The translations under genes and the position numbers were made by a program. Below are positions 5,110 through 47,117 of a stretch of 64,000 nt of DNA, piece by piece (position 1 is the stretch's first letter; every line of letters starts with the position of its first letter). The notes under the pieces were generated by a model that saw only the letters and a program-made list of their open reading frames with translations, was not told the DNA's origin and made no database searches. This stretch comes from Salinisphaera sp. Q1T1-3 (lineage in GTDB: Bacteria > Pseudomonadota > Gammaproteobacteria > Nevskiales > Salinisphaeraceae), in NCBI RefSeq assembly GCF_003602005.1, contig NZ_QZWD01000008.1, positions 62,001 to 126,000 of the forward strand. The letters run 5' to 3'.

Positions 5110-5427
5110 ATGCATATCCCCGATATCAGCGATCGCCAGCATCGTCTGTTCTGCCGCCTTGCCGGCGCCCCGGGCGATCTCGAACGACTGTTACAGGTCG
5201 TGCGACGTCGCGGTTTCTCGATCCGGCAGGTTGAGGCACGCCAGACAGAATCCTGCCTGGCGGTTGCCCTGCATGTGCAGGGCGCACGCGCCATCGAGAC
5301 GCTGCGCGCGCACCTGGCCAACATCGCGACAATGCAATCGGTCCAGCGACCGCTAGGGCCTGTTGATGTGTCGTGCGAGTCCGCGCCAAGCGCTGTTCTG
5401 CGGCAAGACGAGGCGTCGCAGGCATAG
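5110..5427 (+). CDS. ilvM: Acetolactate synthase small regulatory subunit (IlvM-like ACT domain) with repeat-derived tail
   Basis: About the first 81 residues form a short ACT domain like IlvM (FCRLAGAPGDLERLLQVVRRRGFSIRQVEA), which binds and stabilises the catalytic subunit. It starts 3 bases after ilvG. From the CTA codon at 5353 onward the frame runs into an interspersed repeat: the last ~24 residues (LGPVDVSCES... to QDEASQA) are encoded by the repeat and contain a segment also found in translations of the other copies. The original C-terminus and stop were therefore probably replaced. IlvM proteins are usually about 85-90 residues, so the ACT core seems intact; whether the tail matters is unknown. 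Confidence 0.85.
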   Translation: MHIPDISDRQHRLFCRLAGAPGDLERLLQVVRRRGFSIRQVEARQTESCLAVALHVQGARAIETLRAHLANIATMQSVQRPLGPVDVSCESAPSAVLRQDEASQA

Positions 5428-5688
5428 CGTGTCATTCTGCGCCAACCTGCTGGAACGCTGTATTGCCGTCGTGTTTTTGATTTTATTAACCCAGCATAAA
5501 AATAGATGATTTTTCGGGTTGATAACGCGCGTGTGCGAAAGCACGCGCGCCACGGCCAAAGGCCGTGAAGCCATTGAAAATAAAAAGACGGACAAGTGCC
5601 GGCTTTTATTTTTCGATGGCGTTGAAAACAGCTGACGTCGTCAGCTGTTTTGGTGCCGGATTAATAGGGCGCTTGTCCCTTTGGGTTG
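5353..5688. repeat. Family-1 MITE-like repeat, interrupted by a family-2 element
   Basis: Left end CTAGGGCCTGTTGATG at 5353, then sequence closely matching the copy at 42049-42362 (AAGACGAGGCGTCGCAGGC, GCTGTATTGCCG, TTTTTGATTTT). The match breaks at about 5484, where a ~183-bp family-2 element is inserted, and resumes at 5667 with GGGCGCTTGTCCCTTTGGG. The right-hand half, including the expected terminal ACGAAACATCAACAGG, is missing, so this copy is truncated. It overlaps the 3' end of ilvM. Confidence 0.8.
5484..5666 (+). repeat. Family-2 structured repeat, copy 1 (nested in family-1 element)
   Basis: About 183 bp, more AT-rich than its surroundings, with imperfect inverted ends (TTATTAACCCAGCA at the left; the right end read backwards is TATTAATCCGGCA). 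Three internal hairpins are visible: CGCGCGTG/CACGCGCG (5526-5549), CACGGCC/GGCCGTG (5551-5567) and an 11-bp-arm palindrome AACAGCTGACG/CGTCAGCTGTT (5627-5649). A close second copy lies at 25530-25711. No coding capacity is seen; it is probably a non-autonomous mobile element. Confidence 0.8.
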
Positions 5689-5834
5689 CGCCCTGTCATG
5701 CGGCTGACGCGGGCGACGCGGCCATATCGCCCCGGACCAAGTGAGTCGAGCGAAGCGGATGACAGGCTGATCACTTTCTGACCAACCGCCGCCAGGCCAG
5801 GCGCTGCCGGGCCTGGCGACATTCACACACGTGG

Positions 5835-5843
5835 TTATCCACA
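5835..5843 (+). promoter_or_regulatory. DnaA box (perfect consensus), copy 1
   Basis: TTATCCACA matches the strong DnaA-box consensus exactly. It sits in a 33-base core that is repeated with about 80% identity at 5997-6029. Confidence 0.55.
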
Positions 5844-6011
5844 GATATTGTGGGAAAAGACCGGCCCGATCGAGACCGCGGCAGCCACCAGCGGGCCCGA
5901 GGTTCCGATCCGTTTTCGAACACGACTCGCGCACACCGCTGATCTGGTCATTTTTTGATCAGAGGCCGGCAGCCCTTGTGCGGTGCCGGCTAGCGCCATT
6001 CATGCACGCGA

Positions 6012-6020
6012 TTATCCACA
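6012..6020 (+). promoter_or_regulatory. DnaA box (perfect consensus), copy 2
   Basis: Second exact TTATCCACA, in the same orientation and 177 bp from the first, again preceded by a GC hairpin and followed by ATTGTG. No dnaA, dnaN or rep gene is near, so a chromosomal origin is unlikely; a DnaA-titration site or the remnant of a plasmid or phage origin is possible. Confidence 0.55.
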
Positions 6021-6294
6021 GCAATTGTGTGTATTCGTGAATCGTCCGCGTCGGGGCCGACACACGACCTGCGGCACGGCCTCAGGCCCCGGCTCACAGG
6101 TCGTACCATTTGCATGTCCGGCATGCCCCAACTGATCCAGCCGTGACCGAAGCGCGCCGAGACGCCGGTGACGAGGCGACCGGCGAGACACCGCACCGCC
6201 GGATACGCACCGAGTCCGGACCAACACCCGGCGCCATCCCGCTTGTCCACCGGACCGTCTGTGCGCCCGGACGTGCCGGCGGCCGAACACCGAA

Positions 6295-6567
6295 GGAACC
6301 TCTGATCTATTCATCTACGGTCGCGCCGGTGTCTTTTGCGCGCGTCTGACAAGACGCCGCGAGCGCCGTTTGCTGAATGCAAATGAGCGAGCGGCAACGC
6401 CGCTCAGGCGCGCGCAAAAGCCCGGCCGCCAAGCGGTTTGGCCCAAAAGGCCGCGCTACGGCCTTGCATGGCTGGATCATGGCGTGGCTATGACGCGGCG
6501 CCATGCGCCTTGTATCGTGGCCTTTTGGGACTCAAACGCGACCGTGGATGAATAGATCAGAGGTTCC
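6295..6567. repeat. Family-4 MITE-like element with 31-bp terminal inverted repeats
   Basis: The first 31 bases (6295-6325, beginning GGAACCTCTGATCTATTCAT) and the last 31 (6537-6567) are inverted copies differing at one position. The 273-bp element has no plausible gene. Its right end directly abuts the TAG stop of the reductase gene at 6568. The inverted ends are typical of a transposon-derived non-autonomous element whose transposase is not in this window. Confidence 0.85.
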
Positions 6568-7299
6568 CTAACTCATGTACATCCCGCCGTTGACGTTGAA
6601 GGTCTGCCCGGTGATGTAGGCGTTTCGGGCCATGTGGACGACGAGTTCGGCGACTTCGTCGACAGCGCCGAATCGCCCGAGCGGAATCAAATCCGGCGAG
6701 ATGTTGTCGTTGTCGGCGATCATGTCGGTCTCGATGAGCGCCGGGGCGATCGCATTGGCCGTGATGCCGGTACCGGCGAGCAGTCGTGCGTAACTGCGCA
6801 TGAGCCCGAGCTGGCCGGCCTTGCTGGCAGCATAGTGTGGCCCGATGACGCCGCCCAGCTGGGCGGCCACCGACGACATCATGATCAGACGCCCCCAGCC
6901 CCGCTCGCGCATGCCCGGGATGACACGCTGCGAGAGCATGAACGACGATGTCAGATTGGTCTGCAGCGTCGTCTGCCAGCGTTCGAGATTGAGCTCGTCG
7001 ATCGCGTACACCGGGTTGATGCCGGCGTTGTTGACCAGGATATCGACCGGGCCGAGTTCGGCCTCCGTGCTGCCGACCAGCATCTCGGCGGCCGCGCTGG
7101 CGGACACGTCGGCGGGAATGAGCACCGCCTTCTGTCCGCACTCGCGCACCGCGCGGGCCACCGATTCGGCCTCGGCCTTCGAGCTGTTGTAACCCAGCGC
7201 CACGTTGCAGCCGGCCCGCGCCAAGGCGATGGCACTCTCTGCCCCAATCCCGCGCGAAGCCCCGGTCACCAGGGCCACGCGATGCACCAGATCATCCAT
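6568..7299 (-). CDS. Short-chain dehydrogenase/reductase, FabG (3-oxoacyl-ACP reductase) type
   Basis: 243-residue NAD(P)-dependent classical SDR. The Rossmann motif TGASRGIG is at residues 12-19, NNAG at 90-93, the catalytic serine at 142/143 (MMSSVAAQ), and the Tyr-x-x-x-Lys pair at Tyr156 and Lys160 (YAASK). The ATG at 7299 was preferred over an in-frame GTG 18 bases upstream because GGGAA lies 7 bases before it. The overall wording resembles FabG and acetoacetyl-CoA reductases, but no fatty-acid or PHA gene is adjacent, so the substrate is unknown. The stop codon is flush with a transposon-like repeat. Confidence 0.85.
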   Translation of the reverse strand: MDDLVHRVALVTGASRGIGAESAIALARAGCNVALGYNSSKAEAESVARAVRECGQKAVLIPADVSASAAAEMLVGSTEAELGPVDILVNNAGINPVYAIDELNLERWQTTLQTNLTSSFMLSQRVIPGMRERGWGRLIMMSSVAAQLGGVIGPHYAASKAGQLGLMRSYARLLAGTGITANAIAPALIETDMIADNDNISPDLIPLGRFGAVDEVAELVVHMARNAYITGQTFNVNGGMYMS

Positions 7300-7473
7300 T
7301 GCGAATTCCCGAACCACTGTGCCTGGACAACAGCTTACGCCGAGCGGCTGAACATCGACAGTGTCACGGAAGGCGACGTCGCTCAGACGACGAAAGACCG
7401 GGTATCAGCCGGTGATCGGCCGCCGACAGATGTCGGGCACATGGTCCAGGGTCGCGGTCCGGATCGCCCGGGC

Positions 7474-8328
7474 TCAACGCGTGATCAGAACCGGCACCTC
7501 TGCCCGCCGGATCATGTCGGTCGTGGTGCTGCCAACCAGCATGTGCCGGATACGGCTGTGGCCGTAGGCGCCCATGACCATCAGGTCGCAGCCGTTCTCG
7601 CGCTGGTAGGTGTGCAGTGCAGATTCGACTTCGCCGGTCACGACAGCCGTGGTGACATCGGCCCCGGCCTGGCGCAGCGTGGCCTCGGCTTCGTCGATCT
7701 GCGCCCGGCGTCGATCATCCGGCTCCCCCACATAAACGAGGTGGGCGGCGACTTCGCCGAGCAGCGGCGAGGCCGCGGCTCGCTGGATGAGATTCTGGCC
7801 GGTGGCGCTGCCATCGAAGGCGATCAGCACGCGCTGCGGCGCGCTGAAGGTTTCGGTGGTGATCAGGATCGGACAGGACACGCCCCGAATGACGCGCTCG
7901 AGATTAGAGCCCAGATGATCATCGTCGCCGGCCGACTCGCCGCGCTTGCCGATGACCATGAGCCGGATCTCCGCCTCGATCGCGGTGATGGCGTCGACCA
8001 GTTCGCCGTTGCGCTGTCGACACTGCGGCTCGGCGATGCCGGCCTCGCGCGCACGCTCGGCGGCGGCACTGAGCATGTCGGTGCCGCGTTCCCGAGCCAG
8101 CTTGGCACGGGCGCCGTCGAGTTCGGCCAGCTCGTTGAGCAGATGCTCGCGGGTGCCCAACCCGATGCGGCCCGACACATCGGTGGCCGCCGCATGCTTG
8201 CGACGACTGATGACGTGCACGAAGCTGAGCGCCGAATCCAGCTTGGCTGCGGCCCAGACGGCCGCATCGCAGGCCGCGGCGGCATAGCTGGAGCCGTCGA
8301 TGCAGGCGACGATAGTACGATCATTCAT
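7474..8328 (-). CDS. Tandem universal stress protein (UspA-type, two domains)
   Basis: 284 residues made of two Usp domains (about 1-145 and 150-284). The second has an intact ATP-binding signature G-2X-G-9X-G-S/T (MGAYGHSRIRHMLVGSTT) before the final PVLITR strand; the first ends PILITTE with a weaker motif (IGKRGESAGDDDHLGSN). The start at 8328 (MNDRTIVACIDGS) was chosen because family similarity begins there. It lies 16 bases downstream of the SulP transporter gene on the same strand, so the two are very probably co-transcribed. Usp proteins act in the cytoplasm in stress survival; a regulatory role on the transporter is plausible but unproven. Confidence 0.9.
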   Translation of the reverse strand: MNDRTIVACIDGSSYAAAACDAAVWAAAKLDSALSFVHVISRRKHAAATDVSGRIGLGTREHLLNELAELDGARAKLARERGTDMLSAAAERAREAGIAEPQCRQRNGELVDAITAIEAEIRLMVIGKRGESAGDDDHLGSNLERVIRGVSCPILITTETFSAPQRVLIAFDGSATGQNLIQRAAASPLLGEVAAHLVYVGEPDDRRRAQIDEAEATLRQAGADVTTAVVTGEVESALHTYQRENGCDLMVMGAYGHSRIRHMLVGSTTTDMIRRAEVPVLITR

Positions 8329-8344
8329 TGCGCTGTCTCCCCAA

Positions 8345-9832
8345 TCATCCGTTTTCGAGTAGTTTTTCGGCATCCGGCTTGTCGTGCACCGCCACCTTGT
8401 CGACCAGCGTGCGGCTGGCTTCGTTCATGCCGACGATATCGACGTCGGTGCCCTCGCGACGGAACCGCAACACCACACGATCCAGTGCCTCGACGGCCGA
8501 GATATCCCAGAAATGGGCACGATGCACATCGATCGTCACGCGCGGCAAGGCCTCGTTGAAATCGAAGGCATGCCGGAAGCTGGTCGCGGAGGCGAAGAAC
8601 ACCTGGCCGGTAATCTCGTAGACGCGTCGCGTATCGCCCTCGCTCAGATGGCTGTCGATATAGAGCAGACGCCCGACCTTGTTGGCGAAGAACAGAGCCG
8701 AAAGCAGCACGCCCACGAATACCCCGATCGCGAGGTTGCCAGTGGCAACCACCACGGCGACGACCGTGATCATCACGATATTGGTCGATAGCGGATGCTT
8801 GGGCAGATCGCGGATCGACTCCCAGGAGAAGGTGCCGATCGAGACCATGATCATCACGGCCACGAGCGCGGCCATCGGGATCTGACCGACCCATTTCGAA
8901 AGAAACACCACCATGATCAGCAGCGTCACGCCCGCGGTGAGCGTCGACAGCCGGGTGCGCCCGCCGGATTTCACGTTGATCACAGTCTGGCCGATCATGC
9001 CGCAACCGGCCATGCCGCCGAGAAAGCCGGTGACGATATTGGCCATGCCCTGGCCGGCGCATTCGCGGTTTTTGTTGGAGCCGGTATCAGTCAGATCATC
9101 GACGATCGTGGCCGTCATCATCGACTCCATGAGGCCGACCACGGTGAGCATCAGGCCGTAGGGGACGATCACCGACAGCGTCTCCAGCGTGAGCGGGACA
9201 TGCGGAATCAGCAGATGCGGCAGGCTGTCCGGCAGCTCACCCATATCCCCGACCGTATGGATATGGAAACCGCTGGCCATATAGATACCGGTCATCACCA
9301 GGATCGCGACCAGCGGGCTGGGCAGCAGACGCCCGACAAACGGGATATAAGGAAACAGATAGATGATCGCCAGCGAGGCCGCGCACATCGCGTAGACAAT
9401 CCACGACACATCGGTCAGTTCGGGCAGCTGTGCCATGAAGATGAGAATCGCCAAGGCGTTGACGAAGCCCGTGACCACCGAGCGGGAAACAAACCGCATC
9501 AGGTTACCCAGCCGGAACACGCCTGCCAGGATCTGGAACACGCCGGTGGCCAGCGTGGTGGCGAGCATCATATCCAGCCCGTACTGCGCCACGACGGTCA
9601 CGAGCACGAGTGCCATCGATCCGGTCGCCGCCGAGACCATCGCCGGACGGCCGCCGGTGAACGAAATCACCACACAGATCGCGAAGGAGGCATAGAGCCC
9701 GACCTTCGGATCCACGCCCGCAATGATCGAGAATGCGATCGCCTCGGGAATGAGCGCCAGTGCCACGACAATGCCGGACAGCACGTCAGCGCGAATATTG
9801 GATAACCAGTGTTCTCGTATCAGTTGCAGCAT
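8345..9832 (-). CDS. SulP-family inorganic anion transporter with C-terminal STAS domain
   Basis: 495-residue inner-membrane permease. After a short N-terminus ([20 protein letters not shown]) come about 10-12 hydrophobic segments including the SulP hallmark [20 protein letters not shown] and a later [13 protein letters not shown] segment. A cytoplasmic STAS domain fills roughly the last 110 residues ([30 protein letters not shown]). SulP proteins carry sulfate, bicarbonate or other anions. The [17 protein letters not shown] wording and the downstream universal stress gene recall putative bicarbonate transporters, but the substrate cannot be read from sequence. The start at 9832 is the first Met close to the family N-terminus. 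Confidence 0.9.
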
Positions 9833-9926
9833 TGATTCGTTCCAGCACAAATAGCCACACCCGACGCGGCGTGTCGATGATCGTTCGGGAATGATCGCGC
9901 GGTAGACGCTGCGATCGAGGAGCACC

Positions 9927-10157
9927 TTAACAGGAATGGGACCGATCACACCAACCCGATGCCGTCAGCCATCGACAGGGATTGTCGTTGGCCCCGGTCG
10001 CCGATGCGGCGGCGGCGAGCCCTGCCCGGGTATGGCCGAGATCGGCCAGATGACGGTCATCAAGGGTCAGTAACGCCTGTATCTCGCGGCGACACCGCCG
10101 CCTCCTGCGCCAGCGACGCCAGGCGTCAAACAGGCCGAGCGGCGGCATGGCGGGCAT
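9927..10157 (-). CDS. Small DUF1127 protein
   Basis: 76 residues. The core (FDAWRRWRRRRRCRREIQALLTLDDRHLADLG followed by HTRAGL) is a clear DUF1127 (YjiS-like) domain: an Arg/Trp-rich segment then L-x-D-x-x-L-x-D-(I/L)-G. DUF1127 proteins are short basic proteins linked in some bacteria to phosphate, stress or RNA metabolism. Met at 10157 or 10148 could be the start; no strong ribosome site marks either. It is divergent from a LysR regulator gene, a pairing common for DUF1127 genes, so the LysR protein may control it. Confidence 0.75.
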   Translation of the reverse strand: MPAMPPLGLFDAWRRWRRRRRCRREIQALLTLDDRHLADLGHTRAGLAAAASATGANDNPCRWLTASGWCDRSHSC

Positions 10158-10322
10158 GCAGAGCGTGGGCTGCGGCGCGGGCCGATCACAATGATTCCGG
10201 TCGCGTGGGCACATGGCGTGTCTGTCGTCTTGAAGCCGAGACTCGACACTGCGACGCGTTCGTGGATAAGAAAATCTAAAAGATATAAATTCGGCATTCA
10301 GAATATTTGAATACACAATGCC

Positions 10323-11213: not shown

Positions 11214-11240
11214 CACCCGGTCGCCGACCGGGCGGTCACT

Positions 11241-11510
11241 TCAACGCAACAGGCTGTCCTTGCTGGCACGCCGGTTGACGCCGCCCTGACGGGCGTCATG
11301 GGCATCGGCCTCGGCCTGACAGGCCACGCAGCGACGCACGCCCGGTACGAGTTCGCGGCGCCGCTCGGGAATCGGCTCTTCGCAATCCTCGCAATGCGTC
11401 AGGCTCGGACTGGCGGCGGCCAGCCGGGCACGCGCCGCCGCCACGCCTTCGTCGATCGTGGCATCGATCTGTTCCTGTACGCCGCCTTCCTGTGCCCAGC
11501 CGCTGGCCAT
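11241..11510 (-). CDS. DksA/TraR-type C4 zinc-finger protein
   Basis: 89 residues with four zinc-ligand cysteines in CEDC (Cys40, Cys43) and CVAC (Cys61, Cys64), separated by EEPIPERRRELVPGVRR, the hallmark of the DksA/TraR/YbiI family. The N-terminal part is a short helix (QIDATIDEGVAAARARLA) without the long coiled coil of true DksA, so this is a YbiI-like short paralogue. Such proteins can bind the RNA polymerase secondary channel; whether this one does is not known. The gene is convergent with the LysR gene. Confidence 0.85.
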   Translation of the reverse strand: MASGWAQEGGVQEQIDATIDEGVAAARARLAAASPSLTHCEDCEEPIPERRRELVPGVRRCVACQAEADAHDARQGGVNRRASKDSLLR

Positions 11511-11567
11511 CTCGCATCACCATTGATTGCGGTTTGCTAGACCAACATGCCGCTCACGCCGCACGCT

Positions 11568-11593
11568 TGCAAGCCATTCACAATGTCTATAAT
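11568..11593 (+). promoter_or_regulatory. Candidate sigma-70 promoter
   Basis: A perfect TATAAT (11588-11593) is preceded, with a slightly short 15-base spacer, by TTGCAA. Transcription would begin near 11600, which argues for translation of the downstream gene from the ATG at 11623 rather than 11596. Confidence 0.45.
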
Positions 11594-11622
11594 CGATGGC
11601 ATCACCCGGCGATGCCGATGCC

Positions 11623-12813: not shown

Positions 12814-12831
12814 TCACGCACGGGACATCGC

Positions 12832-14127: not shown

Positions 14128-14215
14128 GACTGCACTCCCTCGTGATGATGGTTCGGCCGACGCCAACCGCCAACCGATACACCAGATCAGTCATAGCACA
14201 GTTTTGGCTTCACTC

Positions 14216-14529
14216 CAGGGCGTGTTGAAGTGTCCTGCGAGTCCGCGCCAAGCGCGCCCTGACATTGACGATGGGCGGCAAGACGAGGCGTCCTGCGCGC
14301 CGTGCCGTCATTCTGCACCCGCGGGCGACAACGCTGGATTGCCGTCGTGTTCTTGATTTTGGGGCGCTTGTCCCTTCGGGTTGGGCCGCCCATGAAAAAT
14401 CGACGATGGGCGCCCGGCGGCGTTGCGAGCCTTGATCGTGGCACGCCACGATCGGCGACTCGCGCCTTGCCGGACACGCTGCGGCCTCTCGACGAAAAGG
14501 CGCGCGCACGAAACATCAACAGACCCTAG
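14216..14529. repeat. Family-1 MITE-like repeat (full-length copy)
   Basis: About 314 bp. Left end AGGGCGTGTTGAAGTG (diverged), right end ACGAAACATCAACAGACC followed by CTAG at 14526-14529. It shares long stretches with the copy at 42049-42362, including the internal GATCGTGGC/GCCACGATC hairpin. The right-hand CTAG supplies the stop codon of the Tricorn-like gene. Together with ordinary flank it fills the gap between that gene and the His-rich secreted protein gene. Confidence 0.88.
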
Positions 14530-19330: not shown

Positions 19331-19358
19331 CTGTCTGCGGCATGTCCGGCCGGCCGAG

Positions 19359-20970: not shown

Positions 20971-21266
20971 CTAGGGCCTATTGATGTTTCGTTCGAGCGC
21001 CGCGTTGGGGACCGCCAATCGTGTCCTGCAAGGTGCGAGTTGCCGATCGTGGCGTGCCACGATCAAGGCTCGCAACGCCGCCGGGCGGGATTTGTGGCCC
21101 AACCCTTCGGGACAAGTGCCCCAAAATCAAAAACACGGCGGCAATCCAGCGTTCCAGCACACTGGCTCAGCATGACACGCTATGCGTGCTATGCCTCGTC
21201 TTGCCGCCCATCGTCAATTTCAGGGCGCACTTGGCGCGGACTCGCACGAAACATCAACAGGCCCCA
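20971..21266. repeat. Family-1 MITE-like repeat (reverse orientation)
   Basis: About 296 bp, beginning CTAGGGCCTATTGATGTTTC at 20971 and ending ACGAAACATCAACAGGCCCC near 21265. Read in reverse it aligns with the 42049-42362 copy. The GATCGTGGC/GCCACGATC hairpin is conserved with a different two-base centre. The right-hand CTAG is altered to CCAA. Confidence 0.85.
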
Positions 21267-22810: not shown

Positions 22811-23631
22811 ACGCACGAGGCACCGACCGGACGGTCGCCGCCGGTGCGCCGATCGTCGTCTTCGACTCCGGCGTCGGCGGGCTGTCGGTGGTCAAGGCGA
22901 TCCGCGCGACGCTGCCGCAGGCACCGCTGGTCTATGTCATGGATCGGGCCGCCTATCCCTACGGCGAACAATCCGAATCGGTGCTGCTGGCCCGTGTGCC
23001 GGCGCTGCTCGGCCGCCTGGCCGAGCGTCATGCGCCGCGGTTGATTGTCATCGCCTGCAATACGGCATCCACCATTACGCTGGCAGCCGTTCGGGAAGCA
23101 TTGCACGTGCCGATCGTGGGCACGGTCCCGGCGATCAAGCCGGCCGCGGGCAGCACTCGGCGCGGCGTGATCGGCATCCTGGGAACCGCGGCCACGGTGC
23201 GCCAGCGCTACGTCGACGATCTGACCGCTCGCTTTGCCGGATCCTGCACAGTGCTGCGCCACGGCGCACCGGCGCTCGTCGACTACGCTGAGGCGCGTCT
23301 ACGCGGCCAGCCCGCGGACGAGACCGCGCCCCGCGACGCGCTCGCGTCGTTGATCCAACAGCCCGGCGGCGACGCCATGGATACCGTCGTACTGGCTTGT
23401 ACGCACTTTCCACTGGTGGCCGAAGCCTTGCAACGCGACGCGCCACATCCGCTGACGTTCGTCGACGGCGCCGCCGGCATCGCGGCCCGTTGTGCCGCCT
23501 TGACCGCCGGTCAGCCGTGGCCCGACCGGGCCGCGACTGGCCTCACGCTGACCACCGGCGGGCTCGCGGAATGCCGCGATCTGACGGGCGCGCTCGCGTC
23601 CTTCGATCTGGCGCCAGCCAAACGATTCTAG
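22807..23631 (+). CDS. murI: Glutamate racemase
   Basis: 274-residue cofactor-independent racemase that makes D-glutamate for peptidoglycan. Both catalytic cysteines are present (IACNTAST and LACTHFPL), along with FDSGVGGLSV and the GTVPAIKPA segment; the spacing is typical. Translation is coupled to the PadR gene by an ATGA overlap, an unusual partner. The TAG stop is the last part of the CTAG at 23628-23631, which is the duplicated target site of the IS5-family element directly downstream. Confidence 0.95.
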   Translation: MNARGTDRTVAAGAPIVVFDSGVGGLSVVKAIRATLPQAPLVYVMDRAAYPYGEQSESVLLARVPALLGRLAERHAPRLIVIACNTASTITLAAVREALHVPIVGTVPAIKPAAGSTRRGVIGILGTAATVRQRYVDDLTARFAGSCTVLRHGAPALVDYAEARLRGQPADETAPRDALASLIQQPGGDAMDTVVLACTHFPLVAEALQRDAPHPLTFVDGAAGIAARCAALTAGQPWPDRAATGLTLTTGGLAECRDLTGALASFDLAPAKRF

Positions 23632-24493
23632 GCCCTGTTGAGGTTTCGCCATAAGCGATTGAAATAGAATGGCGAACTCGCATTGTTGCGGTATTCCACC
23701 CCCGCTTCAAAACGAGTTCGCCATGGCCCGCCAGATGCGCTCAGAAAAGCTCTGGACGAAGCTCAGACAGATACTGCTGGCTGAGTCGATTGACGACAAG
23801 CCCCGATTGCGGCAAACAGTCGAGGGCATGCGCTACCGTATGCGGGTCGGATGCCCATGGCGCGACCTGCCGCCGGCCTTCGGGCCGTGGACTACGATTT
23901 ATCAGCGTTTTCGAGCCTGGGTAGCCAGTGGCAAGTGGCGGCGTATTTTCCGTGCGTGCATCGTCGACCCCGATCTCGAATGGGCCTTTATGGATGGCAG
24001 CTATACCAAGGCCCACCAGCACAGTGCCGGGGCTAGCGGCGGTCAGCCGCAGGCGATCGGCCCCAGTCGCGCCGGGCGCACGACCAGGATTCAATTGGCC
24101 GTGGATGCCTACGGCTTGCCGATCACCTTCGAGATCACCGGCGGTCAGATCAACGATTGTTCGATCGGGCCGAGCCGGGTCGACGCGATACCTCGCGTTG
24201 ACATCATGATCGCCGATAAAGGCTATGACAGTCATCGAGTCCGCGCAGCGATCCAGACCCGATCCAGTCGGCCGGTCATTCCGCGCCGGCGTCATTCCAA
24301 GCGAGCCAATCCAGACTTCGATCGCGGTTTATACCGTTATCGACATCTCGTCGAGAACGCGTTTGCACGGCTCAAACAGTACCGTGCGATCGCTTGTCGC
24401 TTCGATAAATTAAAGGCGCACTACGACGCGGTCGTCGCCATGGCATGTGCTCTGCTCTGGCTGCCCATGTAATGAAACATCAACAGGCCCTAG
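23628..24493 (+). mobile_element. IS5-family insertion sequence, intact
   Basis: 858 bp between CTAG direct repeats at 23628-23631 and 24490-24493. Ends: GGCCCTGTTGAGGTTTC at the left; the right end read inward is GGGCCTGTTGATGTTTC (15 of 17 identical). One uninterrupted transposase gene is inside. The same terminal sequence bounds the family-1 short repeats elsewhere in the window, so this element is a candidate source of their transposase. It sits between convergent murI and pdxY, whose stop codons lie in the flanking CTAG sites. Confidence 0.92.
23723..24472 (+). CDS. IS5-family transposase
   Basis: 249 residues, single reading frame without frameshift. The N-terminal helix-turn-helix-like DUF4096 region (GMRYRMRVGCPWRDLPPAFGPWTTIYQRFRAW) is followed by a DDE nuclease core: first Asp in AFMDGSYTKAHQH, second in MIADKGYDS, and Glu in RYRHLVENAFARLKQYRAIACRFDK. 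All three acidic residues and the expected spacing are present, so it is probably active. Start chosen at 23723 (MARQMRSEKLW), where family similarity begins; an upstream Met (23669) would lie close to the IS end. Confidence 0.92.
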   Translation: MARQMRSEKLWTKLRQILLAESIDDKPRLRQTVEGMRYRMRVGCPWRDLPPAFGPWTTIYQRFRAWVASGKWRRIFRACIVDPDLEWAFMDGSYTKAHQHSAGASGGQPQAIGPSRAGRTTRIQLAVDAYGLPITFEITGGQINDCSIGPSRVDAIPRVDIMIADKGYDSHRVRAAIQTRSSRPVIPRRRHSKRANPDFDRGLYRYRHLVENAFARLKQYRAIACRFDKLKAHYDAVVAMACALLWLPM

Positions 24494-25520: not shown

Positions 25521-25877
25521 TAGGACCTGTTATCAACCCGGCATAAAAATAGATGATTTTTCGGGTTGATAACGCGCGTGAGCGACAGCACGCGCGCCAC
25601 GGCCAACGGCCGTGAAGCCATTGAAAATAAAAAGACGGACAAGGGCCGGCGTTTCTTTCGATGGCGTTGAAAACAGCTGACGTCGTCAGCTGTTTGGGTA
25701 CCGGATTAATAACACTTCACACGTGACCGCGTTGCCGCCCGACGGGACGGCGGTCATTTTGCGCAATCCGGCGTTGTCGTTCGCGACGCCCGAATGACGG
25801 CCGTACGCCCCGATGCCTTGTCTTGCAAAAAAATGAGCGCCGGCGCCGCGCACGCGGGACGTGTTGACAGGCCCTAG
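25521..25877. repeat. Family-3 repeat, copy 1, interrupted by a family-2 element
   Basis: Left end TAGGACCTGTT at 25521; right end GTGTTGACAGGCCCTAG finishing at 25877. The outermost CTAGGGCCTGT matches family-1 ends but the next bases differ (CAACAC versus TGATG). Inside, AACACTTCACACGTGACCGC and CGACGGGACGGCGGTCATTT also occur at 46953-47117. A family-2 element is inserted within the left terminal repeat. The CTAG supplies the MFS gene stop. The rest of the 25378-25873 gap shows nothing else. Confidence 0.75.
25530..25711 (+). repeat. Family-2 structured repeat, copy 2 (nested in family-3 element)
   Basis: About 182 bp, closely similar to copy 1 at 5484-5666 and in the same orientation, with ends TTATCAACCCGGCA and (inverted) TATTAATCCGGTA. 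The three hairpins are kept although loop bases differ: CGCGCGTG/CACGCGCG, CACGGCC/GGCCGTG and AACAGCTGACG/CGTCAGCTGTT. Confidence 0.8.
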
Positions 25878-31242: not shown

Positions 31243-31270
31243 CGACTCGCACGAAACATCAACAGGCCCC
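31243..31270. repeat. Solo terminal fragment of a family-1 repeat
   Basis: GACTCGCACGAAACATCAAC followed by AGGCCCC is the right-hand end of a family-1 element with no body attached. It directly abuts the left end of the next copy, suggesting successive insertions or a deletion between two elements. Confidence 0.7.
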
Positions 31271-31543
31271 AGGGCCTGTTGAGATTTCGTTCGAGCGCCT
31301 TTTCGTCGAGAGGCCGCAGCGTGTCCGGCAAGGCGCGAGTCGCCGATCGTGGCGTGCCACGATTCAGGCTCGCAACGCCGCAGGGCGCGATTTGTGGCCC
31401 AACCCTTCGGGACAAGCGCTGTTTTGCGGCAATACAGCGTTGTAGCCCGCTGGTGCAGAATAACGGCACGGCGCGCACTACGCCTCGTCTTGCCACAAAA
31501 CAGCGCTTGGCGCGGACTCGCACGAAACATCAACAGGCCCTAG
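31270..31543. repeat. Family-1 MITE-like repeat (reverse orientation)
   Basis: About 274 bp: left end AGGGCCTGTTGAGATTTCGT, right end ACGAAACATCAACAGGCC with CTAG at 31540-31543. It contains the conserved GATCGTGGC hairpin (one arm slightly changed). It ends 38 bases before the lipoprotein start codon, so it may contribute that gene's promoter or leader. Confidence 0.88.
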
Positions 31544-36364: not shown

Positions 36365-36519
36365 CTAGGGCGTGTTGAGGTTTCGTTCGAGCGCCCTTTC
36401 GTCGAGAGACCGCAGTGCGTCGGGCAAGGCTTGCAACGCCGCCGGGCGCGATTTGCGGCCCAATCCAAAGGGACAAGCGCGACAAGCGCGGACTCGCACG
36501 AAACATCAACAGGCCCTAG
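36365..36519. repeat. Short family-1 MITE-like repeat (internally deleted)
   Basis: 155 bp bounded by CTAG on both sides (36365-36368 and 36516-36519), with ends GGGCGTGTTGAGGTTTCGT and ACGAAACATCAACAGGCC. It keeps both termini but lacks the central hairpin segment. It shows the smallest complete unit of the family. The right CTAG is the stop of the gamma-glutamyltransferase gene. Confidence 0.88.
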
Positions 36520-39574: not shown

Positions 39575-39641
39575 TCGTCTTTCTCAATCAGAGTGATACG
39601 CCTAGTCTGGCACGATTGGCAACACGCGAAGGCACACCCTC

Positions 39642-40604: not shown

Positions 40605-40649
40605 CGTAATGCTCCCGCAGATATGACAATAAACAACAGGCGGTCCGGC

Positions 40650-40970: not shown

Positions 40971-41998
40971 ACGTCGACTCCGACGGCCTGCCAGGCCTTT
41001 CGAACCGCGTCGCGCGTGGTGCTGTCGAAACGTTCTTCGGCCAGCGCTGTCGTGACCGCGGCGAAGCCGGCGAAATCGGTGTCACGCGCGAGCCGCGAAT
41101 CGGTCAGCGCGGCATACCAGATATGCCCGGCCACGACCCAGCTGTGGCCGGACAATGCGGTCGCCGCCAGATAGAAGGCCCGATTCGGGATGCCGGAATT
41201 GATATGCACACCGCCGTTGTCCTGGCGCGTGTCCACGTAATGCGCCATGTCCGCCGGCTGCGGATCCTGACCGAGCTGATCGTCGTCGTAGGCGGTGCCG
41301 GGCTGCGCCATGTCGCGCAGGGCACGGCCCTGTACGGCCTCGGTCAATAACTCGGCGCCGATCAGCCAGCTCGCCTGGGCCGCTGTTTCGTCGTTCGCGT
41401 ATTGCTCGGTCATCGCGCCGAATACATCGGAGATCGATTCGTTGAGCGCGCCGGACTGGCCTTCATAGACCAGATCGATCGTCGCCCCGGTCACGCCGTG
41501 CGTCAGCTCGTGCGCGACGACGTTCAAGGATCGGGTGAACGGCTTGAAGATACGACCGTCCCCATCCCCGAACACCATTTCGCGGCCATTCCAGAATGCG
41601 TTCATGTAATCGCGACCGTAATGCACGCTGCCGTCGAGCGGCATGCCGGCATCGTCGATCGAATCCCGATCGAAGACATCGGCATAAAAGCGATAGGTGG
41701 CACCGAGATCGTCGTAGCCTTCGTTGACTTCGCGATCGGCGACCGGCGCATCGCCCTCACCGCGCATCGGCGTGCCGGGCAGTCGCTGGGTGTGATTGGC
41801 GTCGTACAGCGTGCGTTCGAGGCCGGCCGCACGACGCGGCAGGGCCGCTGCCTCGGACGGCTCGACCGCGAGCAGTCCCTCATCGAGGGCCTGCGTGGTT
41901 TCGGCACATCGACGAAGCCCGCTATCGGCGTGTGTTTTCAGACGTTCCAGCATATGCGGCGGTACGATGCCGCGACGTCGCGCTCGGGTTTCATGCAT
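40967..41998 (-). CDS. Protealysin-like M4 zinc metalloprotease
   Basis: 343 residues. A short N-terminal propeptide (RGIVPPHMLERL) carries the PP-x-x-L motif of protealysin precursors and there is no signal peptide. The mature thermolysin-type domain has HELTH (163-167), the third zinc ligand Glu187 in ALNESISDVFG, GVHINSGIPNRAFY and the late GHIWYAAL segment. AGGAGG six bases before the ATG at 41998 decides the start. It is translationally coupled to an emfourin gene, so activity is probably held in check inside the cell. Confidence 0.92.
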   Translation of the reverse strand: MHETRARRRGIVPPHMLERLKTHADSGLRRCAETTQALDEGLLAVEPSEAAALPRRAAGLERTLYDANHTQRLPGTPMRGEGDAPVADREVNEGYDDLGATYRFYADVFDRDSIDDAGMPLDGSVHYGRDYMNAFWNGREMVFGDGDGRIFKPFTRSLNVVAHELTHGVTGATIDLVYEGQSGALNESISDVFGAMTEQYANDETAAQASWLIGAELLTEAVQGRALRDMAQPGTAYDDDQLGQDPQPADMAHYVDTRQDNGGVHINSGIPNRAFYLAATALSGHSWVVAGHIWYAALTDSRLARDTDFAGFAAVTTALAEERFDSTTRDAVRKAWQAVGVDV

Positions 41999-42048
41999 GC
42001 CGTGCCTCCTCGGGCTCGTCCGTTGCATCCTGCATCGACGTTTTCACC

Positions 42049-42362
42049 CTAGGGCCTGTTGATGTTTCGTGCGAGTCCGCGCCAAGCGCGCCCTGAAATT
42101 GACGATGGGCGGCAAGACGAGGCGTCGCAGGCATAGCGTGTCATGCTGCGCCAGCCTGCTAGAACGCTGTATTGCCGCCGTGTTCTTGATTTTGGGGCGC
42201 TTGTCCCTTCGGGTTGGGCCGCCCATGAAAAATCGACGATGGGCGCCCTGCGGCGTTGCGAGTCTGGATCGTGGCAGGCCACGATCGGCGACTCGCGCCT
42301 TGCAAGACACGCTGCGGTCTCTCGACGAAAAGGCGCTCGAACGAAACATCAACAGACCCTAG
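42049..42362. repeat. Family-1 MITE-like repeat (best-preserved full-length copy)
   Basis: About 314 bp bounded by CTAG at 42049-42052 and 42359-42362. Left end GGGCCTGTTGATGTTTCGTG; right end ACGAAACATCAACAGACC. It contains a perfect GATCGTGGC-AG-GCCACGATC hairpin. No gene inside. It is used here as the reference copy for the family. Confidence 0.92.
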
Positions 42363-42382
42363 CACGATCGCACCGGCCGGCT

Positions 42383-42404
42383 GCCCCCGGGATCGCCCGG
42401 GGGC
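42383..42404. terminator. GC-rich hairpin downstream of the EamA gene
   Basis: GCCCCCGGG / CCCGGGGGC with an ATCG loop, 15 bases beyond the EamA stop on the minus strand. No T tract, so termination is only inferred from position. Confidence 0.5.
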
Positions 42405-42418
42405 CCGCAGCCCCCGGA

Positions 42419-43312
42419 TCATCTCGCGACAGTCAATCGATCGGAGGCGACATCGAGTACGGCCGCGCCGATGAGCAACGTGCCGCCAGCGATCTGGATC
42501 GGCGCGAGCGATTCGCCGGCCAACAGGGCGGCAGAGATCACACCGACCAGCACTTCACTCATCAGCAGGATCCCGACCCGGGCCGGTTCGAGATGCGATG
42601 TCGCCCAGACCAGGGCCACCATGGTCGTGACCCACCACAGCCCGCCGGCCGCCAGCGCCCAGAGCGTGGTCGACAATGCAGGGGGCCAAACCGTCCCGGA
42701 TGGCCACGTCGGCGATAGGCCGAACAGAACGAAAGCCGTACCCAGGGCCCCGACGACGAACACGAACGTACTTTCAACCGGCGCGAGATCGCTCCGGGCA
42801 CTCATCCCGATCGAGCCGAGCGACCAGAACAGGCCGGCGAGCAACGCGTACCACTCGCCGGGGCGCTGCGGGATCGGGAGGCCGCCGCCCCGGCCGAGGG
42901 TGAGCACCAGGCCGGCCAGCCCGGCCACGATCACGACATAACGCACCGGATGCACGGCCCGCCCGAACACGAATCGCGTGAGCAACGTGGTCCAGACCGG
43001 CGTGAGATAGAACAACAGGATGACAACCGCCACACGGGCCTCGACGATCCCCACGGAGTAAAGCATGAAGGCCGAGCCGCCGAGCCCGGTCGCAGCCACC
43101 CCGAGACGATCGGCGCGTCGCCAGTCCTGTCGGCGCCAGATGACGATCGGCAACAGGATGGCCCCGGCGATCAGCGCAACGATCACCGAACCGAGCGCGC
43201 CCGGCCAGCCGGCGCCCGACAGCGCGCGCACCGGCATCCAGTAGAGCCCCCATAACGAGCCGGCAACAGCCACGATCAGGCTGGCGATCAACGTTCGGCG
43301 GGCAGCATTCAT
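42419..43312 (-). CDS. EamA-family (DMT superfamily) transporter
   Basis: 297 residues with ten predicted membrane helices in two repeats of five, the EamA arrangement. The first repeat begins LIASLIVAVAGSLWGLYWMPVRAL; the RARxAV-like VEARVAVVILLFYLTPVWTTLLTRFVFGR segment and the second-repeat LEPARVGILLMSEVLVGVISAALLAGE segment are family-typical. Such proteins export amino acids or other metabolites; the substrate cannot be deduced. The first repeat contains an unusually tryptophan-rich cytosolic loop (WRRQDWRRADR). Confidence 0.88.
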   Translation of the reverse strand: MNAARRTLIASLIVAVAGSLWGLYWMPVRALSGAGWPGALGSVIVALIAGAILLPIVIWRRQDWRRADRLGVAATGLGGSAFMLYSVGIVEARVAVVILLFYLTPVWTTLLTRFVFGRAVHPVRYVVIVAGLAGLVLTLGRGGGLPIPQRPGEWYALLAGLFWSLGSIGMSARSDLAPVESTFVFVVGALGTAFVLFGLSPTWPSGTVWPPALSTTLWALAAGGLWWVTTMVALVWATSHLEPARVGILLMSEVLVGVISAALLAGESLAPIQIAGGTLLIGAAVLDVASDRLTVAR

Positions 43313-43531
43313 GAGCGATCGATCGGTCGTGCGACGAGCGCGCGATCCTAGCAGTTAACCCACGGTCCGGCAGAGCAAGGCCCCACCGACGAAGCAATAT
43401 CGAGCCGGGCGCTCCGCCCTGGCCGAATCAGCGAGCCCCATCGTTTGCCCTGGGGCCACTGCGTTGATCGGTGCTATCCCACGAATCGCCGAGATCAAAT
43501 GGATCGGCGCCGCAGCCAGGGCGTGACGCGG

Positions 43532-44527
43532 TCAGCGAGCGCGATTTCCGACATGCCAGGCCACGGTGTCGACCAGCCCGCGGTCCAGAGGGATCCGCGG
43601 TTCCCAGCCGAGCGTGCAACGCAGACGGGTGGCATCGACGGCATAACGTCGATCATGACCGGGCCGATCGGCGACATGACGAATGCGTGCGGCACTCGGC
43701 GCCGCCGCCGGCATCGCCTCGTCCACGGCCGCGCAGAGCGCCCGCACGAGCGACAGGTTGGTACGCGGCGCGCCGCCGGCGATGTTATACCGCCGGCCCG
43801 GCTGGCCCGCGGCCAGCACGCACCGAATGGCCGCCGCATGATCATCGACATGCAGCCAGTCCCGGACCTGGCCACCGTCGCCGTAAACGGGCAGCGTTCG
43901 GCCATCCAGCGCGGCTTCGATCATGCACGGCACCAGTTTCTCGGGATGCTGGAACGGGCCGTAGCTGTTGACGCCGTGTGTCACGAGCGTCGGCAGCCCG
44001 TAGGTGACATGCCAGGCGTTGACCAGATGGTCGGCGCCAGCCTTGCTGGCCGCATAAGGCGAAGCCGGTGCGTAAGCATGCTGCTCATCGGCGACCGTCG
44101 GCGCCTCGAGACTGCCGTAGACTTCGTCGGTGGATACGTGCAGGAAACGAAACCCCGATCGCGCTGGGCCCGACAGCCGCTGCCAGTAGTCTCGCGCCGC
44201 CTCGAGCAACGCGAACGTGCCATTGACGTTGGTGGCCACGAACGGCGCCGGGCCGCTGATGGCCCGATCGACATGCGACTCGGCCGCGAGATGCAGCACG
44301 GCATGGGGCCGATGGGCAGCGAAGATGTCCGCGAGCAACGCTCCGTCGACGATATCGCCGTGAATGAACGTATAGCGCGCCGAGCCATCAACCGCGGCCA
44401 GTGCAGCCGGCTGAACCGCATAGGTCAGCGCATCGAGATTGATGATCTCGTGGTCGGTTTCCCGGATCAGGGCACGAACGAGCGCAGAGCCCAGAAACCC
44501 CGCCCCGCCGGCGATGAGTAGCCGCAT
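43532..44527 (-). CDS. rfbB: dTDP-glucose 4,6-dehydratase-like extended SDR
   Basis: 331 residues. The nucleotide-binding GGAGFLGSALVR (about 7-18), HLAAESHVDRAI, STDEVYGSLE (with the Thr-Asp-Glu of dehydratases), YAASKAGADHLV (catalytic Tyr/Lys) and the NSYGPFQHPEKLVPCMI, GDGGQVRDWLHVDDH, RPGHDRRYAVDATR motifs are those of RfbB/RmlB. It converts dTDP-glucose to the 4-keto-6-deoxy sugar for rhamnose and related surface sugars. No rfbA, rfbC or rfbD neighbours are present, so its pathway partners must be elsewhere. Start at 44527 (MRLLIAGGAG). Confidence 0.9.
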   Translation of the reverse strand: MRLLIAGGAGFLGSALVRALIRETDHEIINLDALTYAVQPAALAAVDGSARYTFIHGDIVDGALLADIFAAHRPHAVLHLAAESHVDRAISGPAPFVATNVNGTFALLEAARDYWQRLSGPARSGFRFLHVSTDEVYGSLEAPTVADEQHAYAPASPYAASKAGADHLVNAWHVTYGLPTLVTHGVNSYGPFQHPEKLVPCMIEAALDGRTLPVYGDGGQVRDWLHVDDHAAAIRCVLAAGQPGRRYNIAGGAPRTNLSLVRALCAAVDEAMPAAAPSAARIRHVADRPGHDRRYAVDATRLRCTLGWEPRIPLDRGLVDTVAWHVGNRAR

Positions 44528-44797
44528 GATCTGTCTGGCCTGTCGCCGTCTGTTCAACGAATCGGACGAACGCCTGCATCGCACGCCCGGCCGGTATCGG
44601 CTGTATTCTGCTTGAATCGCAGCAAGAGGCCCAGCGTGATCGCAGCGACACCCGCCGCGCGGTCACGTCATGCCCGGAGCGTAACCGCGCCGAGCGGCGC
44701 CGCCGCCCGAACGAAGCCGATCGAAAGACCGGCACCGCTTTGTTGCCAAGCGCCACGCACGCTCTGCCGGCGACGGCCACCGGGATCGGTCGATCGC

Positions 44798-45712
44798 CTA
44801 GGGGGCCGTCACGTAGCGATGCCAGGGATGTTGTTCGACGAACCCGAGCACGTCGCGAATCTTGCGGTTCGAGTACAGGGCCTCGTGTTCGCCGAGTGTG
44901 CCCCGGACCTCGACGTCGGGATAAAAGCGTTCGATGATCTCGGCCGTGCCGAGATGCACCGAGTTATGATCATTGCCGGCATTGAAGACCTCATACCCGA
45001 GGCCGTCGGTAGCCAGGCAGCGATCGACGATCTGGCCGAGATCGCGCGCGTCGATATAGCAGAACACGTTGCGACGCCGAACCGCCGGATCGGCGAAGAA
45101 GTGCGGAAACATCGTCGCGTACTCGTGCGGCTCTATGACGTTGCCGATACGCAGGCCATAGATATCGGCGCCGGTGCGCTTGGCGAACGCCTGCGCGGTG
45201 GCTTCATTGCAGACCTTGCTGGTCGCGTAAGTGTCGGTCGGTGCCGTCGGATGTGTTTCATCGACCGGCAGAAAGGCCGGTTGCACCGTGCCGTCGGCGA
45301 AACAGATACCGTAGGTCGTCTCCGACGAGGCGAACACGATCTTGTTGATCCCGAGTTTCGTGGCCGCGTTGAGCACATTGTAAGTGCCCTGTGTGTTGAT
45401 GCGATATGTCTCGGCATCGGTGGTTACGAAATTGCGCGGGATCGCGGCGAAATGCACAACCGCATCGAACGGACGCGGGCCCCCGTCGCCCCGTTCCAGT
45501 TCGCCCATGTTCGCGTACGTGGACAGGGCATCGAACATCTGACCGGCATCGGTCACATCAGCCGTCAAATGATCCACACGTGGGTCGTCCAGCGGCACGC
45601 GGTCGATGTTGAGCACCTGATGCCCGCGATCCAGCAGATACGGCACCACGTGGCGACCGGCCTTACCGGAGCCACCGGTGAAAAGAATACGCTTGGTATC
45701 GTTCAGGGACAT
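44798..45712 (-). CDS. NAD-dependent epimerase/dehydratase family protein
   Basis: 304 residues, extended SDR. The Rossmann motif GGSGKAG is near residues 13-19, the VVHFAAIPRN strand near 90, SSETTYG supplies the catalytic Ser, and YATSK the Tyr/Lys pair. The wording (FTGGSGKAGRHVVPYLLDRGHQVLNIDRVPL) is close to uncharacterised sugar epimerases and uronate dehydrogenase-like proteins. The substrate is unknown. It lies 270 bases upstream (in its own direction) of the rfbB-like gene. The stop is TAG in CTAG, with no repeat attached. Confidence 0.85.
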   Translation of the reverse strand: MSLNDTKRILFTGGSGKAGRHVVPYLLDRGHQVLNIDRVPLDDPRVDHLTADVTDAGQMFDALSTYANMGELERGDGGPRPFDAVVHFAAIPRNFVTTDAETYRINTQGTYNVLNAATKLGINKIVFASSETTYGICFADGTVQPAFLPVDETHPTAPTDTYATSKVCNEATAQAFAKRTGADIYGLRIGNVIEPHEYATMFPHFFADPAVRRRNVFCYIDARDLGQIVDRCLATDGLGYEVFNAGNDHNSVHLGTAEIIERFYPDVEVRGTLGEHEALYSNRKIRDVLGFVEQHPWHRYVTAP

Positions 45713-45792
45713 TATGTTCTGGTCTTACCGGATGATGAAGCTATCCTGCCACAGCTTCTGCTCCCGGCCCGCGCCCCTTCGACGATGCGCTA

Positions 45793-46935
45793 ATGACCAC
45801 TCGCTATGCCTGGCTGGCCGTTTTCACGACCGGCTTCATCCTCTATGGCTCCCTCGTGCCGTTCCACTGGTATGCCGGTGCAGCGGCCAATCCAGTGACC
45901 TATCTGTTGTCCCGCTGGGCCACACCGGCACAGACGACGGCCGGCTTCGTTGCGAACGTCGCGCTCTACCTGCCATTGGGCCTGTGCATCGCACTGGCAC
46001 TCGGCCGTTCGATCACGGTGACACGACGTGTTGTCATCGCCGGCGTTGCCAGTAGCCTGCTCTGCATCAGCGTCGAACTGGTACAGGTCTATGACTGGGG
46101 TCGCCAGTCCACGCTGACCGATGTCTACCTCAACGTCGCCGGTGGCGTGCTGGGCGCCCTGCTCGTCCCCCTCTTGCCGGTTCGCGTACAGCAACCACGC
46201 GGCAATCTGCGTCAGCCGCTGGTGCTGGCCCTGCTCGCCTCGTTTCTGGTGATCGAGCTCTATCCCTTCATCCCCTCGCTCAACGTCTCGTGGTACGACG
46301 ACGCGCTGACCTCCCTGTGGCGGCACCCGCACATCCACGACGCGATCTTCGTCCGCGCCCTGCTGCACTGGCTGCTCGCCGCGGCCCTGCTGGGGCATCT
46401 ATTCCGAAGGCGCGACGGCCTGATCAGTCTGGCGCTTCTGGCCGCCGGCGTGTTCGTCGGCCAGATCGTCATGCAGGATACCTGGCTGTCGATCAGTGAA
46501 TGGAGCGCGGCTGCCCTGGCACTTGGGCTTTACGCCGGCCTTGCAGGCACCGCGTCCCGCCACCGCGCCATGATCCTGGTCTGTGTCCTGGTCGCCGGCC
46601 AGACCTATCTGGCCTGGCTTGATCCGACCGTGCTGAGCCACGGCTCGATGATCGCCGCGCTGGAAGATCGCGATCTCGTTGCCGGTCTGCGGCGTCTGGT
46701 GGCAGCCTTCTATACGGTCGGCGGGACGTTCTGGCTTCTGAGCCGGACCGGCCTGGTCATGCATCGCGCCAGCGCGGTGCTCGCCGTGATGCTGGTCGGT
46801 ATCGCGCTGATCACTCTCGCATTCGGATCGGTGCCACCGGATCCGAGTGCCCCGCTCCTGGCGATCCTCTGCGCCCTCGGATTCGGTCTCGCCGCCCGAC
46901 GCCGCACGCAACAGGCGAACGCGGCACCGACCTGA
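45793..46935 (+). CDS. VanZ-like membrane protein
   Basis: 380 residues with about ten predicted membrane helices. The N-terminal third has the VanZ pattern: YGSLVPFHWYAG, NVALYLPLGLCIALAL, SLLCISVELVQVYDWGRQSTLTDVYLNVAGGVLGAL (the E-x-x-Q and D-x-x-x-N motif). VanZ proteins are membrane proteins linked to teicoplanin resistance or cell-envelope phosphatase-like functions. The remaining two-thirds is an additional unclassified membrane region. It is divergent from the epimerase gene. Confidence 0.85.
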   Translation: MTTRYAWLAVFTTGFILYGSLVPFHWYAGAAANPVTYLLSRWATPAQTTAGFVANVALYLPLGLCIALALGRSITVTRRVVIAGVASSLLCISVELVQVYDWGRQSTLTDVYLNVAGGVLGALLVPLLPVRVQQPRGNLRQPLVLALLASFLVIELYPFIPSLNVSWYDDALTSLWRHPHIHDAIFVRALLHWLLAAALLGHLFRRRDGLISLALLAAGVFVGQIVMQDTWLSISEWSAAALALGLYAGLAGTASRHRAMILVCVLVAGQTYLAWLDPTVLSHGSMIAALEDRDLVAGLRRLVAAFYTVGGTFWLLSRTGLVMHRASAVLAVMLVGIALITLAFGSVPPDPSAPLLAILCALGFGLAARRRTQQANAAPT

Positions 46936-46952
46936 GCACGGGCGGGCCGGCC

Positions 46953-47117
46953 AGGGCCTTTCAACACTTCGCGCGTGACCGCGTTGCCGCCCCAAACCGC
47001 CCATGCGGCGTTGCACGGCTTGACTTTGGCGTGACCAAGATCGGCGCCCTGCGCCATGTCTGGCCGATTTTTGGGCGCAACCCGACGGGACGGCGGTCAT
47101 TTTCCGCAATCCGCTAG
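46953..47117. repeat. Family-3 repeat, copy 2 (right terminus lost)
   Basis: Begins AGGGCCTTTCAACACTTC, continues GCGCGTGACCGCGTTGCCGCCC and, after a ~90-base middle part missing from copy 1, CGACGGGACGGCGGTCATTT. It ends at CTAG 47114-47117, which is the TAG stop of the Bcr/CflA gene. Copy 1 (25521-25877) has the complementary internal deletion and keeps the right end. Confidence 0.7.

Follow-up and report, generated by a model that had tools for sequence, protein, structure and literature searches.

Why do the transposable elements of a Salinisphaera genome end so often at the stop codon of a neighboring gene? The question is raised by a stretch of 64,000 nucleotides from Salinisphaera sp. 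Q1T1-3 (contig NZ_QZWD01000008.1, positions 62,001 to 126,000), in the following called the window. The window carries an insertion sequence (IS) of the IS5 family and a set of short inverted-repeat elements. A first-pass annotation had noticed that the ends of these elements coincide with CTAG, that the TAG of this CTAG is in several cases the stop of an adjacent gene, and had suggested a general safe-site strategy. Our analysis makes it very probable that the elements are specific for CTAG and carry a terminal G that re-makes the stop, and that insertions into coding sequence are lost; this supports a safe site in the sense of tolerance, but not in that of active targeting.

CTAG is scarce in the window, where it occurs 25 times compared with a mean of 64 in 100 dinucleotide shuffles. 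Eleven of the 25 sites are element junctions with a terminal repeat (5353, 14526, 20971, 23628, 24490, 25874, 31540, 36365, 36516, 42049 and 42359), which confirms that elements end at CTAG in many places. Five of the eleven are stops of called genes, namely of a Tricorn-like gene (14526), murI (23631), pdxY (24490), a major facilitator superfamily (MFS) gene (25874) and ggt (36516). The sixth stop listed by the first-pass annotation, at 47114, is a CTAG stop as well, but no element ends there: the adjoining letters (..CGCAATCCG) come from within a repeat that goes on elsewhere, and a terminal repeat is lacking. Stops are also found among the 14 remaining CTAGs of the window (4 of 14; 38591, 44798, 47114 and 59566), and the window by itself is therefore unable to show enrichment.

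Counts were carried out in a sample of 1.65 Mb (43%) of the 3.87-Mb genome, which consists of the window and stretches of eight long contigs with listed element matches; contigs without listed element matches lie outside this sample. Genes were called with our own hexamer-based script, a non-standard annotation, which yielded 1,402 genes (85% coding). TAG serves as stop in 290 of them and is preceded by C, i.e. part of CTAG, in 133. As in the window, CTAG is rare in the sample (536 observed, ~1,120 expected from trinucleotides). Only CTAG junctions were taken into the junction-level counts, and ends with other flanks were excluded. Among the 108 element-junction CTAGs, 50 were stops, 55 intergenic and 3 interior to genes, so that an element is present at 50 of the 133 CTAG stops. 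The 428 unoccupied CTAGs comprised 83 stops, 206 intergenic and 139 interior sites. At this level, stops were overrepresented at junctions, with odds ratios of 3.6 (p = 4e-8) relative to all unoccupied CTAGs and 2.3 (p = 7e-4) relative to the non-coding ones, and the direction was the same in all three end families of the elements (stops at 39/90 junctions for F1, 6/10 for F2 and 5/8 for F3). The unoccupied background was subsequently cleaned by dropping 24 "intergenic" sites inside elements, 10 sites at the edges of element homology (6 of them stops) and 1 interior site. This lowered the non-coding odds ratio and left 393 sites (77 stops, 179 intergenic, 137 interior).

Junction-level tests count both ends of every insertion. 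Because every insertion contributes a pair of junctions, of which the stop side is protected, figures at the level of insertions are preferred. Of 71 paired elements, 28 were located at a stop and 43 were not; three had stops on both sides, including the IS between murI and pdxY, and none spanned a gene. Compared with all unoccupied CTAGs (28/71 versus 77/393), the odds ratio was 2.7 (p = 6e-4). The enrichment over all CTAG sites, for which the first-pass annotation had suggested a genome-wide count, was thus found in the sampled 43%. An alternative pairing rule placed 30 of the 71 pairs at a stop. One pair scored as non-stop (C11:395700) is in fact a misregistered kept stop (CCTAGG), and its inclusion (29/71) raised the odds ratio to 2.8. 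Against non-coding CTAGs the excess was small and depended on the estimator. The odds ratio was 1.5 (p = 0.15) when all pairs were counted, 1.6 (p = 0.11) with 29/71, 1.7 (p = 0.10) once nested pairs were set aside, and 2.3 (p = 0.007) when at least one intact end was required. Avoidance of coding DNA by the insertions is strong and is the source of most of the enrichment. There may in addition be a preference for stops over other non-coding CTAGs, but these figures do not establish it. The idea that the elements naturally land at gene ends and are tolerated there is therefore supported; of the safe-site strategy, the data support the tolerance but not an active targeting of stops.

The target word and the tip of the elements account for the survival of the stops. 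Both TAs are intact in 29 pairs of the sample, and the target was CTAG in 23 of these, CTAA (or TTAG) in 4 and ATAG in 2. For comparison, CTAG makes up 245 of the 5,861 intergenic NTAN words. These intact pairs back the CTAG specificity that had been assumed. The base just inside the TA was G in 76 of 85 intact junctions. At non-palindromic targets a G is in some cases found inside both ends (e.g. C2:76709), and a Pseudomonas plasmid copy has CTA/G at one end and C/TAA at the other (the slash marks the element boundary). The duplicated bases are therefore TA, and G is part of the element. Since the element begins with G, the junction TA/G spells TAG, and a stop at the target, be it TAG or TAA, persists as TAG; since a G is present at each end, both of two convergent genes that share one CTAG keep their stops. 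This reason for the survival of the stop had been overlooked in the first-pass annotation. Beside CTAG no clear consensus of an extended target motif was seen, only a slight excess of C two to three bases outside the TA.

These sequences show that an ISPa67-like IS5-family element and several families of putative non-autonomous short elements with related ends have inserted at YTAR, overwhelmingly at CTAG, and have duplicated the TA. TAG is re-created at both junctions, and the stop at the target is kept on that side. The near absence of interior junctions suggests that selection removes insertions within genes. CTAG is rare, and stop codons make up about 30% of those unoccupied CTAGs that do not lie in coding interiors, so CTAG specificity alone directs a large share of the survivable insertions to stops.

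The IS itself (860 bp, 23631..24490, plus strand) is located between the convergent genes murI and pdxY, and the two stops at 23631 and 24490 belong to this single insertion, one at either end. In the left junction (CTAG, 23628..23631, plus strand) the TAG at 23629-23631 is the murI stop, and in the right junction (CTAG, 24490..24493, minus strand) the minus-strand TAG is the pdxY stop. The transposase open reading frame (23669-24472, plus strand, 267 amino acids) is uninterrupted. Its product contains the Pfam domains DUF4096 and DDE_Tnp_1, both above gathering scores, and matches the NCBIfam equivalog model NF033580 (IS5 family transposase) with 248.6 bits at a cut-off of 110. An IS5-type transposase, terminal inverted repeats and a short target duplication at YTAR/TA thus assign the element, which is ISPa67-like, to the IS5 family. 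It may belong to the IS427-type subgroup of IS5, with which a TA duplication would be consistent. IS630 reportedly prefers TA within CTAG, to go by the title of Tenzen and Ohtsubo 1991. Its transposase is of the Tc1/mariner type, whereas the window transposase gave IS4/IS5-type matches; the IS630 family was rejected, as no IS630 or Tc1/mariner model of Pfam or NCBIfam matched and the best models were of IS5 and IS4/IS5 type. Elsewhere in this genome the IS has one further close match, which is partial and lies at the end of a contig, and one remote match. It is absent from the murI/pdxY site in the five relatives read (G001, G002, G006, G008 and G010), four of which have no element there at all. 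In G001 (locus L128) a different short element is found in the CTAG stop of the murI homologue. The same stop has thus apparently been struck more than once, in two species.

After insertion the free ends of the elements decay. In the sample, 47 of 82 ends of non-stop pairs had lost the TA, and in one-stop pairs 16 of 25 free ends were intact. Stop ends were kept in 25 cases, compared with 3 genes whose reading frame enters an end that has decayed (p = 0.047 against free ends; 26 versus 2 and p = 0.016 with C11:395700 moved to the kept stops), in a test that is partly circular because stop ends are recognized by their intactness. The result hints weakly at selection for retention of the stop. 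Selection may keep the CTAG on the stop side in this way, and the free end may drift to CCAG or CTGG. The decay of the junction CTAG is asymmetric (e.g. at 14215 and 31269 in the window): read inward, CCA was found 29 times and CTG 9 times in the 71 pairs, and the same asymmetry was seen over 233 ends (40 versus 11). Since CCA and CTG both result from T to C in CTA on either strand, the asymmetry requires a context of at least five bases (CTAGG). Vsr repair acts in a five-base context of this type. It was rejected as the cause of the CTAG to CCAG decay, as this genome has no Vsr match; matches are present in 2 of 14 genomes of the genus (G005 and G008).

Related elements were found in other genomes of the genus and on plasmids. 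Exact YTAR-flanked F1 ends number 129 in this genome, 75 in G006 and 0-5 in each of 12 other genus genomes. A search for the end pattern of the element across named genomes gave nine stretches, all from Salinisphaera, and among the matches listed diverged copies are spread over the searched genomes of the genus. G006 has undergone a separate expansion of the same F1 end sequence, and its contigs often break at elements. Copies of one class there show a few differences per 60 bases. Thirty junctions of G006 (from 65 exact matches) comprised 11 stops, 16 intergenic and 3 interior sites. In G001 and G010 together, 10 of 30 sampled CTAG junctions were stops and 1 was interior, and two elements of G010 (loci L240/L242 and L244/L246) are bordered by a stop on either side. 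Plasmid relatives of the transposase, from Raoultella, Aeromonas, Azotobacter, Halomonas and Pseudomonas, have 58.5-63.4% identity over 89-98% of the query and are mostly annotated as IS5 family, one of them as ISPa67 (15 of 2,874 records listed). Ten of these ISPa67-like plasmid copies were read. Eight have recognizable ends, similar to those of the window elements, and all eight show YTA/TAR flanks with the TA repeated (two of them represent the same site); the remaining two are without recognizable ends. The relative on plasmid pHA020_1 of Halomonas sp. A020 (L267, 132-536) lies precisely where the TAG stop of a hypothetical gene is annotated. This stop annotation is independent of our own gene calls.

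A trivial origin of the pattern would be truncation: any gene running in the right frame into TA/G would stop there, and the TAG of the insertion would have become a new stop. In the four stretches tested, 9 of the 11 genes with an occupied stop had homologues, and 8 of these 9 ended within 3 residues (median) of them, in comparison to 41 of 47 genes with unoccupied stops; owing to overlapping loci, some relatives' genes are counted twice in these figures. The stops thus predate the insertions. Indeed, the end position of murI homologues is identical in 6 of 6 relative loci and that of pdxY homologues in 5 of 6, the sixth locus (L126) being rich in N. The MFS gene at 25874 is the exception and the sole testable gene that differs by more than 3 residues: in 5 of 8 loci its homologues stop 2-9 residues before it does, and in the other 3 they continue for 83-319 residues. 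Two stop-site pairs without a TAR target also fit truncation. At a YTAR target, however, the same codon was TAR already, and the absence of any gene-spanning pair among the 71 speaks against truncation as well. The truncation artefact is thus mostly refuted, and we consider it exceedingly improbable. A second possibility is a benefit to the host: the elements would be retained at gene ends for acting as terminators or as 3' RNA structures, for example between convergent genes. Three pairs are indeed inserted in a CTAG common to two convergent genes, none of the unoccupied CTAGs in the sample fell into the shared-stop class, and the two elements with stops at both ends in G010 are further cases. 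The convergent share at stops was nevertheless 8/30 versus 18/87 in the background. An alignment of 23 copies gave no covariation support for an RNA structure (term +0.32; both-sided changes in 4 of 70 pairs), although its row 14218 was apparently in the wrong orientation, which slightly worsened the alignment. Rfam at gathering scores detected only a tRNA in the window. One F1 copy scanned had no terminator-like site, and the terminator-like site at 5615 in one F3 copy was at chance level. Retention for a host benefit is hence very improbable.

The transposase or a host factor could also truly favor stop CTAGs over other non-coding CTAGs, by supercoiling, terminated transcription or an extended context. 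The odds ratio of 2.3 for pairs with at least one intact end argues for such a preference, and so do the other genomes. Of 27 non-coding junctions in G006, 11 are stops, compared with a null of 15-17% (p = 0.001-0.003) or, with the own background of G006 (7 stops, 10 intergenic), of 21% (p = 0.014), and in G001 and G010 the count is 10/29 (p = 0.008-0.015); this null presupposes that each insertion has two scorable junctions and no more than one stop side, and the background is small or taken from other species. The preference shrinks to an odds ratio of 1.5 when all pairs are used, and no strong extended motif is found beside CTAG. Furthermore, selection against insertions in promoters or other intergenic sites would yield the same excess. 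A true preference therefore appears unlikely.

Several observations weigh against the explanation by CTAG specificity, terminal G and tolerance. The gene calls of the sample come from our own script, the excess over non-coding CTAGs was not significant for all pairs (p = 0.15), and the test for kept stop ends is partly circular. Junctions called as interior do occur, 3 of 30 in G006 and 1 of 30 in G001 and G010. Stops made up 5 of 21 element CTAGs in the loci of relatives that were fetched for synteny, compared with 42 of 214, i.e. there was no enrichment (p = 0.58). Seven of the eight plasmid copies with recognizable ends are not at an annotated stop, in which they differ from the IS of the window. 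A base other than G was present inside the TA in 9 of the 85 junctions. Finally, in two stop-site insertions (C4:2348 and C33:31106) the base outside the far TA is A; unless this base mutated later, the codon before insertion would not have been a stop.

The short repeats of the window belong to at least three end families, F1 (GGGCCTGTTGATGTTTCG), F2 (GGGCCTGTTAACACTTCG) and F3 (GGGCCTGTTATTAACCCG). Elements of composite build and copies in tandem are frequent. Paired F1 elements measure 119-396 bp and have the CTAG target in common with the IS, whose two ends show 2 and 1 mismatches to the F1 motif over 18 positions. Being short and repeated, with terminal repeats and a target duplication like that of the resident IS, they are candidate miniature inverted-repeat transposable elements (MITEs). 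The shared ends and target suggest that the IS5-type transposase moves them in trans. Two F1 elements end at stops: a 309-bp element (14218..14526) has the stop of the Tricorn-like gene in its right CTAG (14526-14529) and CCAG at its left junction, and a 149-bp element (36368..36516) has CTAG at both ends, the right one (36516-36519) being the ggt stop. The remaining F1 elements are not at stops. They measure 291 bp (20974..21264; left CTAG, right CAAG), 269 bp (31272..31540; in tandem with a fragment ending at 31269, right CTAG at 31540) and 308 bp (42052..42359; CTAG at both ends). One composite (5356..5666) consists of an F1 left half (CTAG 5353) fused to F3 (5483-5666). Another, composed of F3 and F2 (25523..25876), has the stop of the MFS gene in its right CTAG (25874-25877), and this junction fits the F2 end motif only at the limit of 3 mismatches. 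An F2 fragment (46953..47113) lacks a terminal repeat beside the CTAG at 47114, the stop of a Bcr/CflA-like MFS gene. Tandem elements share one TA or its decayed form (window 31269-31272, C2:92022-92025 and C11:328083). The CTAG at the tip of an element is itself a target, which leads to the arrays and mosaics of F1, F2 and F3. At 6295-6567 of the window a 31-bp inverted repeat (97%) was found, the arms of which are 211 bp apart and start with GGAACCTCTGATCTATTCATC; similar letters occur beside other repeats, and this is perhaps another short element family.

Elements of this kind and the CTAG target are known; the comparison given here is based on the parts covered of the articles cited. IS5 of Escherichia coli uses the target Py-T-A-Pu, with CTAG as the commonest word (15/24; PMC5493358). 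It differs in its four-base duplication, compared with TA only here, and no stop-codon pattern was seen for it in the covered parts of that article. IS5 copies with CTAA or CTAG flanks are also mentioned in PMC11677980. MITEPsy1 of Pseudomonas syringae is a short inverted-repeat element of suggested IS5-type origin with the target CTAG or YTAA (PMC3189936). In contrast to the TA found here, this 100-bp element, with six copies in the genome table, has a four-base duplication, and the covered text contains no discussion of stop codons. MITEAba12 of Acinetobacter is a short non-autonomous element thought to be mobilized by a resident IS (PMC6382973); it generates a 9-bp duplication without a motif and, in the covered text, disrupts or truncates the genes it enters. 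According to a review, bacterial MITEs are mainly intergenic, and RUP inserts at TA (PMC2229807). In the literature searched, which was covered in part, no description was found of a coincidence of CTAG elements with stop codons or of the terminal G as its cause. The coincidence follows naturally from known properties.

A stronger version of the targeting idea holds that the transposase or a host factor steers the elements to stop codons beyond CTAG availability and selection, and that the G at the tip is an adaptation for re-making the stop. This is quite improbable; if true, it would mean that IS5-type elements with a dedicated, stop-codon-neutral insertion habit exist. Under the preferred explanation, CTAG specificity with a terminal G that re-makes the stop, the target word of a transposon can render its insertions harmless: more than one third of the sampled CTAG stops are occupied, and the genes keep their stops. 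Such elements can accumulate in many copies where genes are densely packed, and a TAG at the junction is to be expected when this family is annotated.

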